A stretch of 64,000 bases of DNA from contig NZ_QNHG01000001.1 of NCBI RefSeq assembly GCF_003290025.1, forward strand, positions 1,190,656-1,254,655, in the 5' to 3' direction. The notes below the pieces were generated by a model. It was given only the letters and a program-made list of their open reading frames with translations, was not told the origin of the DNA and did no database searches. This DNA comes from Pseudogemmobacter bohemicus. GTDB taxonomy: Bacteria > Pseudomonadota > Alphaproteobacteria > Rhodobacterales > Rhodobacteraceae. The position numbers were made by a program, and so were the translations under genes. Of this stretch, positions 48,847-50,509 are shown piece by piece; position 1 is the first letter of the stretch, and every line of letters begins with the position of its first letter.

Positions 48847-49243
48847 ACCGCGGCTCCTTTCGCAATATTGGCGCCGGCGTCCTAAAGACCGCCGGTCGTC
48901 CTTGCTGTGCGGTGCTGTTTCAGCGGTCGCCCTGCCCGGTCCCTGTCTCAGCCCCCTGAGCACACGCCCTGCCCGGCGCCACAAGCCCGACCAGACAGTC
49001 GCGGTTTACCGCCCCGCCCCTGCCGCGCTGCGCGCGGTATTTTTCGGGTAGCCGCGCTACGCGCGGTGGCTTTTCGAAACCCGTACTTCGCGCGGGCGGG
49101 GCTGCATCCTGATCAGGCTCTGCGCCAGGACGGCGCCCATGCCGCCCCCTTATGGCTGCGGCCGAAACAGACCGGCGGATCTGGACCTTGGCGGCACAAT
49201 CCCTATATTGAGACCAGAAGTTTTCCGGACCGGGACCATTCCG
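48847..49243. other. Gene-less gap with hairpin repeats between ssb and sufT
   Basis: No supported gene. The segment 49023-49090 has three related palindromic units: GCCGCGCTGCGCGCGGT then TTTTTCG (49023), GCCGCGCTACGCGCGGT then TTTTCG (49052), and a degenerate third. They could act as terminators for ssb. The promoter for sufT should lie in the right part. Confidence 0.55.
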
Positions 49244-49621
49244 ATGGACATGACCGCCTCGACTGCCGATCAGACTGCTGATGAAGGCGCGCCGCTGATT
49301 GCGCCCTCCTCTGTCGACCACCCGCTTTACGATCAGGTGGCGGATGCCTGTCGCACGGTATTCGACCCGGAAATCCCGGTGAATATCTTCGATCTCGGGC
49401 TGGTCTATACCATCGCCATCGACGGTGAGAATGCGGTTAAGATCGTGATGACGCTGACCGCCCCCGGCTGCCCGGTTGCCGGCGAGATGCCGGGCTGGGT
49501 GCAGGAGGCTGTCGAGGCCACGCCTGGCGTGCGCGAGGTCCAGGTCGAGATGACATTCGACCCGCCCTGGGGAATGGAGATGATGTCGGATGAGGCCCGC
49601 CTTGAACTGGGCTTCATGTAA
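49244..49621 (+). CDS. sufT: SufT/MIP18-like Fe-S assembly factor
   Basis: 125 residues of the DUF59 family. After a variable leader (MDMTASTADQTADEG) the domain shows ACRTVFDPEIPVNIFDLGLVYTIAIDG, TLTAPGCPVAGEMPGWV with the conserved Cys, and VEMTFDPPWGMEMMSDEAR. SufT supports Fe-S cluster maturation; an A-type Fe-S carrier gene is 0.5 kb downstream. The reading frame continues directly past its TAA into a T4-endonuclease-V-like ORF, giving a near operon. Confidence 0.88.
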   Translation: MDMTASTADQTADEGAPLIAPSSVDHPLYDQVADACRTVFDPEIPVNIFDLGLVYTIAIDGENAVKIVMTLTAPGCPVAGEMPGWVQEAVEATPGVREVQVEMTFDPPWGMEMMSDEARLELGFM

Positions 49622-49633
49622 GCGTCCACCGCC

Positions 49634-50053
49634 CTGACCCGTATCAACTGCATCCCGCCCGAAGAGCTGAGCGCCGCGCATCTGATCGCGGAATATCGCG
49701 AATTGCCGCGTATTTTTGGCCTTGTCCGCGCCGCCATTCTGCGCGGCGAGGCGCCGGATGATCCGCGCAATCCGCGCGAGTACCGGCTCGGTTCGGGGCA
49801 TGTGCGGTTCTTTTATCCCCGGCTCGGCTGGCTGGCCTACCGCCAGGCCGCGCTGATCGCCGAGATGCAGGCGCGCGGATATCAGCCCTCCTTCACCAGC
49901 CCGGGGGATCTTACCACGGGAATTCCTGCGGCCTCGACCGGCGACTGGCGGCCCGATGCGCTGGCGCTGGCGCTGAACCGCGACCGGATCGCGACGCGGC
50001 TGGCGGAAAGTGCGGCACGGCGACGCGAGAAGGCCCCGCTTGCACCTTCGTGA
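49634..50053 (+). CDS. T4 endonuclease V-like pyrimidine-dimer DNA glycosylase, CTG start inferred
   Basis: T4 endonuclease V cuts DNA at UV-induced pyrimidine dimers as a glycosylase/AP lyase. Read from CTG at 49634, this frame gives 139 residues (T4 protein 138): TRINCIPPEELSAAHLIAEY, then RELPRIFGLVRAAI and HVRFFYPRLGWLAYRQAALIAEMQARG. Aligned to the phage enzyme, Thr2 (imine-forming nucleophile), Arg22, Glu23 (catalytic) and Arg26 are at the same positions. No ATG or GTG lies at the N terminus; the preceding TAA of sufT is in the same frame, 12 bases upstream. CTG initiation, or re-initiation from sufT, is inferred. An ATG start, if used at 49703, would remove all catalytic residues. Confidence 0.8.
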   Translation: MTRINCIPPEELSAAHLIAEYRELPRIFGLVRAAILRGEAPDDPRNPREYRLGSGHVRFFYPRLGWLAYRQAALIAEMQARGYQPSFTSPGDLTTGIPAASTGDWRPDALALALNRDRIATRLAESAARRREKAPLAPS

Positions 50054-50137: not shown

Positions 50138-50509
50138 ATGTTCGGCATCCCCGGCAAAGCCGCCGTTTCAATCACCCCGGCAGCTGCAAAGCAGATCACC
50201 CGCCTGATGGCGCGCGATGGCAGCCAGGGCCTGCGGATTGGCGTCAAAAAGGGCGGCTGTGCGGGGATGGAATACACGATGGATTACGTCCAGGAGGTCA
50301 ATCCGCTGGATGAGATCGTCGAACAGGATGGTGCCCGCGTGCTGATCGCCCCCATGGCACAGATGTTCCTGATCGGCACGGTGATTGATTACGAGACCAG
50401 CCTGCTCGAATCGAAATTCGTCTTCCGCAATCCGAATGTGGCCGAGGCCTGCGGCTGCGGCGAATCAATCCGCTTTAGCGAGCCTGCGGAAACACCACCC
50501 GCGCCCTGA
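50138..50509 (+). CDS. A-type Fe-S carrier (SufA/IscA/HesB)
   Basis: 123 residues that carry or scaffold Fe-S clusters. The three conserved Cys are visible in IGVKKGGCAGMEYTM and VAEACGCGESIRF, and VSITPAAAKQITRLM starts the family domain. The C-terminal tail (SEPAETPPAP) is short and acidic. It follows the repair gene by 84 bases and may belong with sufT. It could be SufA- or IscA-like; the sequence does not separate them. Confidence 0.92.
   Translation: MFGIPGKAAVSITPAAAKQITRLMARDGSQGLRIGVKKGGCAGMEYTMDYVQEVNPLDEIVEQDGARVLIAPMAQMFLIGTVIDYETSLLESKFVFRNPNVAEACGCGESIRFSEPAETPPAP

Follow-up and report, generated by a model that had tools for sequence, protein, structure and literature searches.

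A chromosomal DenV-type pyrimidine dimer glycosylase gene behind sufT in Pseudogemmobacter bohemicus and its putative CTG start codon

Relationship to T4 endonuclease V

In T4 endonuclease V (DenV), the amine of a threonine forms a Schiff base and is the catalytic nucleophile, with participation of a glutamate, according to excerpts of PMC3285167, whose residue numbering is one less than that used here. DenV chemistry needs an exact N terminus, which makes the start codon of such a gene more than an annotation matter. The closest named phage proteins among the matches listed are the endonuclease V proteins of the roseophages RDJL Phi 1 and 2 and the Rhodobacter phages RcRudolph and RcSimone-Hastad, which share 53–60% identity with the protein described here over residues 1–122/124; these are encoded in phage genomes with ATG starts, whereas the present gene is chromosomal and carries CTG at the equivalent position. 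The family is already known, and what is new is a chromosomal member for whose rare start codon pseudogene remnants set bounds on the age; among the open-licence PMC papers listed, we found none on this DenV gene or on a DenV gene started at CTG.

The gene lies in a 64,000-nucleotide stretch of the P. bohemicus genome (hereafter the window), between sufT and a sufA/iscA-family gene (Table 1). Its product matches PF03013 (Pyr_excise) in a Pfam profile search with 49.8 bits against a cut-off of 23 (E 4.6e-13), T4 endonuclease V (PDB 2end) over residues 1–125 (E 1.7e-22), and PHROG 1183, "endonuclease V N-glycosylase UV repair enzyme" (E 8.9e-38), with no NCBIfam match at 1e-3. An AlphaFold2 model built from 11 aligned homologues without templates has a mean pLDDT of 92.8, and the best Foldseek match of this predicted structure is 2end (E 7.9e-9, rmsd 1.4 Å, TM 0.84), with all four PDB chains that the model retrieves at E < 0.001 being T4 endonuclease V. 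Residues Thr2, Arg3, His16, Arg22, Glu23, and Arg26 are all present, and Thr2, Arg3, Glu23, and Arg26 fall among the 24 invariant columns in an alignment of 19 sequences; Arg3, His16, Arg22, and Arg26 are residues that we take to belong to the functional set of DenV. This bears out the proposal of the first-pass annotation that the open reading frame encodes a relative of T4 endonuclease V with its catalytic residues intact. Judged from sequence, the window frame is a catalytically intact DenV homologue, with homology beyond chance, whose product would incise cyclobutane pyrimidine dimers with a free N-terminal threonine.

The likeness to T4 endonuclease V thus comprises the alignable residues 1–125, the fold, and the six residues named above, while the window gene differs in being chromosomal and bacterial, in its CTG, and in a tail past residue 125. 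This C-terminal tail (50009–50050) is rich in Arg and Lys, unlike that of T4 endonuclease V, and most of the aligned phage homologues stop near residue 122–127. The aromatic stretch that we take to characterise the C terminus of T4 endonuclease V is absent from the window protein.

Table 1. Features of the sufT–sufA interval, in window coordinates
Feature	Position	Strand	Remarks
DenV-type pyrimidine dimer DNA glycosylase / AP lyase gene	49634..50053	+	139 codons from CTG; assigned by PF03013, 2end, PHROG 1183, AlphaFold model, and Foldseek
CTG, putative start codon	49634..49636	+	Aligns with ATG (21) or GTG (2) of 23 relatives; CTG in 3 sister remnants
ACC, Thr2, expected catalytic N terminus once Met is removed	49637..49639	+	Role as given in excerpts of PMC3285167
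Spacer from sufT stop to CTG, 12 nt, without Shine-Dalgarno	49622..49633	+	2–3 of 12 sites differ from three sisters
sufT, upstream gene	49244..49621	+	FeS_assembly_P; SUF_assoc TIGR02945 above cut-off; FeS_long_SufT below cut-off
sufA/iscA-family gene, next downstream	50138..50509	+	TIGR00049 above cut-off; sufA_proteo below cut-off
TTG-started ORF, first in-frame standard start	49703..50053	+	Would miss Thr2 to Glu23

Location and distribution

The first-pass annotation had placed the gene at 49616–50053. Its frame and its stop codon (TGA, 50051–50053) stand, whereas position 49616 does not, as the ATG at 49616–49618 is the last sense codon of sufT and is followed by the sufT TAA at 49619–49621. 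The next codons read GCG TCC ACC GCC CTG ACC, confirming that the codon at the Met1 position is CTG, in the frame of sufT and 12 nt behind its TAA, with no ATG or other usable start. The spacer between sufT and sufA is 519 nt in the window, as against 228–282 nt in the three most closely related species. A consensus scan found no promoter or terminator between sufT and the DenV gene; a sigma-70-like match at 49182–49209 and a terminator-like match at 49021 are hits to consensus only. Between ssb and sufT there is one 12-nt repeat pair and otherwise nothing notable.

The pairing of a dimer glycosylase with Fe-S assembly genes had been thought odd, and looks incidental. Linkage to suf, as expected for a SUF Fe-S assembly component, is not conserved, since an intact copy was found in none of the 12 congeners and two close homologues, 67–71% identical to the window protein in protein alignment, stand at other loci: that of Sinirhodobacter populi (L004 543-2417) is directly behind fumC (63 nt) and that of Asticcacaulis tiandongensis (L005 745-2384) directly behind tyrS (2 nt). 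Both are single genes on the coding strand with GTG starts, and like the window gene are solitary behind a housekeeping gene. Across these three cases, the common theme seems to be capture behind a well-expressed housekeeping gene, with its transcript borrowed, and not iron-sulfur biology.

Protein or family searches of the 13 genomes of the genus returned the gene from the window's own genome only. Counts in the wider sets, which overlap and each include the window genome, were 2/394 for the family, 1/390 for the order, 3/385 for the class, and 4/398 for the phylum. The second hit in the family (L003 1501-1998, genome G293) is a different-looking PF03013 protein on a 20-kb contig, beginning MNIFVTDPSP; one of the three class hits is at E 9.6e-4, and one of the four phylum hits is at E 1e-4 and has an internal stop. 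A pattern scan of named genomes found two, S. populi and A. tiandongensis. Matches were present in 1,040 of 50,697 phage records (the best at 60% identity, from roseophages RDJL Phi 1 and 2) and in 1 of 72,556 plasmids, and nine loci from viral contigs were taken for comparison. Phage as the source of the window gene is the natural reading, though the protein tree, with 4 of 16 branches starred as supported, lacks the strength to position the window sequence.

The start codon

Between the sufT TAA and the TTG at 49703 there is no in-frame ATG, GTG, or TTG, so that only the CTG at 49634 places threonine as residue 2, and no standard start could yield the conserved N terminus. The TTG at 49703 is the first standard start in frame, but lies past Glu23 and thus cannot give the catalytic N terminus; a shortened protein initiated there would be without its catalytic part, and we give this reading almost no weight. 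The shared frame of sufT and the DenV gene, 12 nt apart, raised the suggestion that read-through of the sufT TAA yields a SufT-repair fusion. Such a fusion would bury Thr2 and remove the free amine that serves as nucleophile in the account excerpted from PMC3285167, and TAA is the sufT stop in the window and in three sister species alike, leaving read-through a scarcely credible explanation.

The codon aligned with Met1 is ATG in 21 and GTG in two of 23 relatives, and CTG in none. This survey took in 20 loci, each oriented to its coding strand, plus three others, and includes the near-duplicates L032/L033 and L034/L041; the hits L003, which starts with ATG, L021, and L024 lie outside it. As the relatives have ATG or GTG, the start must have changed at some time. 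Among the phage records, the annotated start of RDJL Phi 2 endonuclease V (L041 1001-1381) is 18 nt 3' of an ATG that is in frame and corresponds to the family start, which would remove Thr2. In the metagenomic phage record MW202557 (L039 824-1381), the annotated ATG lies 177 nt upstream of the family start, and Thr2 would therefore be buried.

No Shine-Dalgarno sequence precedes the CTG, the 20 nt upstream pairing with the anti-Shine-Dalgarno at 0.0 kcal/mol, compared with +1.4 to -10.7 kcal/mol for 19 relatives and a median of -3.0 kcal/mol for random 20-mers of the window (in this comparison the value for ssb is void, the gene having been begun 9 nt, or three codons, early). Initiation at the CTG would consequently lean on coupling to sufT. 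In E. coli gene pairs, re-initiation drops by 40–80% at +14 nt and is nearly gone at +38 nt, as reported in excerpts of PMC10666635, by which figures the 12-nt distance from sufT is tolerable but poor. Initiation complexes on CUG are described as less stable than those on AUG, GUG, and UUG (PMC11497404, in excerpt), and low output is expected from the CTG. Among 486 N termini of Ruegeria pomeroyi, starts are ATG (94%), GTG (5%), and TTG (1%) in the excerpted data of PMC3305630, and the portion of PMC5622118 available gives switches to CUG for 2 of 61,358 ancestral AUG starts and 1 of 5,080 GUG starts. From the codons and their setting, we infer weak initiation at the CTG, coupled to sufT, as the best reading.

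Remnants in three sister species

The three closest congeners (G011/L007, G009/L008, and G012/L009), whose SufT proteins are 95–96% identical to that of the window, are without an intact copy. In each of them the sufT TAA is followed by 12 nt, 2–3 sites of which differ from the window, and then by CTGAC. Over the next 36 nt the spacers of L007, L008, and L009 match the window gene at 21, 21, and 24 positions, scores reached by 28, 32, and 0 of 126,520 window 36-mers, by 4, 3, and 0 of 20,000 column shuffles, and by none of the 170 window 36-mers anchored on CTGAC. Over 52 nt, L008 and L009 have 30 and 32 matches, neither of which is reached by any of 170 anchored controls; the match of L007, which has a deletion there, is weak (22/52, reached by 3/170). 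In the remainder of the spacer, the top local alignment with the gene reaches a score of 28 for L007 and 33 for L008, compared with control maxima of 26 and 28 over 890 chunks, and beats 998–1000 of 1000 shuffles. The corresponding 3' scores of L009 (16, reached by 241/890 controls and 104–178 of 1000 shuffles) and L010 (10, reached by 561/890 controls) are not significant. These spacer tests cover seven of the 12 congeners (L007–L010, L014, L015, and L018), with L011, L012, and L017, which are without the ATGTTCGG anchor downstream, and L013 and L016 left out; L007 and L008 match the gene, L009 matches at the 5' end only (anchored test), and L010, L014, L015, and L018 show no match. L016 is a short locus, and its sufT end was misplaced in the alignment of the loci. 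A TGA at codon 6 is common to all three sister sequences.

The sister spacers look like a decayed DenV remnant. A tree on four neighbouring genes groups the three sisters with support 100/100 and separates window and sisters from three other congeners with support 99.8/100, the window being sister to the three on the assumption that the root lies among the other congeners; for the tree and the distances below, ssb was again taken 9 nt early, which is harmless for distances. In all probability-weighted simplicity, the gene and its CTG probably date back to an ancestor of all four species, with retention in the window lineage alone. As all three remnants have CTG at the start position, where the intact relatives surveyed have ATG or GTG, the change of start seems to predate the split from the sisters, which suggests that the CTG is old and not a mistake. 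A sequencing or assembly error at the C of the CTG, conceivable in that CTG is one base from ATG or GTG, would have to recur at the same place in three other assemblies and is exceedingly improbable.

A clean recent insertion at CTGAC, to which the empty-looking sister spacers at first pointed, was rejected, as these spacers keep matching the gene past this motif. In a related account, recent capture by short homology, TGAC would have joined an incoming gene to CTGAC in the spacer, with the host C replacing the first base of ATG or GTG. The presence of CCCTGAC in all three sister spacers and the very patchy distribution of the gene are consistent with such an event, but the likeness past CTGAC, and at the 3' end too in two of three sisters, is unexpected from a clean insertion, and we regard recent capture as distinctly improbable.

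Constraint on the open frame

Neighbouring genes differ from those of the sisters at dS 0.42–1.04, meaning that the frame has stayed open over a long time. Single substitutions that create a stop number 35 of 1,242 (about 2.8%), and with third-position identities of 0.65–0.67 we estimate by hand that the window branch would have taken about 90 changes under neutrality, with 2–3 expected stops and a chance of about 5–10% that the frame would remain open, before indels. With so few stops expected from neutral decay, the open frame alone is weak proof of selection. Over 124 codons pN/pS is 0.38, 0.32, and 0.32 for pairs with the window gene and 0.36, 0.39, and 0.32 for other pairs, synonymous sites being near saturation in this comparison. 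The protein tree likewise gives no sign of relaxed constraint, with a window end branch of 0.27 and a median of 0.27. Taken together, the open frame and pN/pS favour a working gene, without amounting to proof.

These data bear on the possibility that the start was lost, that the CTG is dead, and that the body of the gene has yet to decay. All 23 relatives have ATG or GTG, no Shine-Dalgarno sequence is found at the CTG, and three sister species did lose the gene. A CTG common to the sister remnants, however, would have been dead since the split, yet the window gene has neither stop nor frameshift, its invariant residues are kept, and its pN/pS resembles the values for the other pairs; we consider a dead start unlikely, though less so than the alternatives above. 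The first-pass annotation had asked whether relatives carry a start codon that mutation removed here, and the answer is divided: the start did change, but the CTG of the three sister remnants makes it seem that it did so before their split, after which the gene stayed intact in the window lineage.

Our preferred reading, which we hold to be probable as a whole, is that a DenV-type glycosylase/AP lyase of ultimate phage origin became lodged behind sufT on the chromosome and is translated weakly from its CTG. Ribosomes that have just finished sufT 12 nt upstream would initiate weakly at CTG 49634, where initiator tRNA would place fMet, and removal of the Met would expose Thr2 as the catalytic N terminus. 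The ancestor that the window species shares with the three sister species would already have carried the gene and its CTG; a single loss in the sisters' stem, marked by the shared TGA at codon 6 and an internal deletion, would then have left the window lineage with the intact gene. Translation from the CTG, coupling, Met removal, activity, and the ancestral state of the CTG are each what we infer from these comparisons.

Photolyase

No photolyase (PF03441, PF00875) and no member of the DPRP family was found in the window genome (G000), while photolyase is present in nine of 13 congeners, among them all three sisters that lost the DenV gene. This distribution, with photolyase absent where the gene was kept and present where it was lost, is suggestive, and with few genomes a lead and not a result. 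The link is loose, as G005, G007, and G008 are without both photolyase and the DenV gene, and S. populi has both; A. tiandongensis has the DenV gene and no FAD_binding_7 match. Very tentatively, the CTG may be a long-kept, deliberately weak start, by which a DNA-nicking enzyme of phage origin is held low and metered by sufT, kept in the one lineage that lacks photolyase and lost in sister lineages that possess it; we think this rather unlikely.

Significance

A gene caller restricted to ATG, GTG, and TTG would begin this gene at TTG 49703 and so report a fragment without activity. Should the CTG be in use, it would represent a natural CUG start for which the remnants in sister species set bounds on the age, and evidence of this kind is rare. 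The locus also allows a trade-off between photolyase and a glycosylase captured from phage to be tested.
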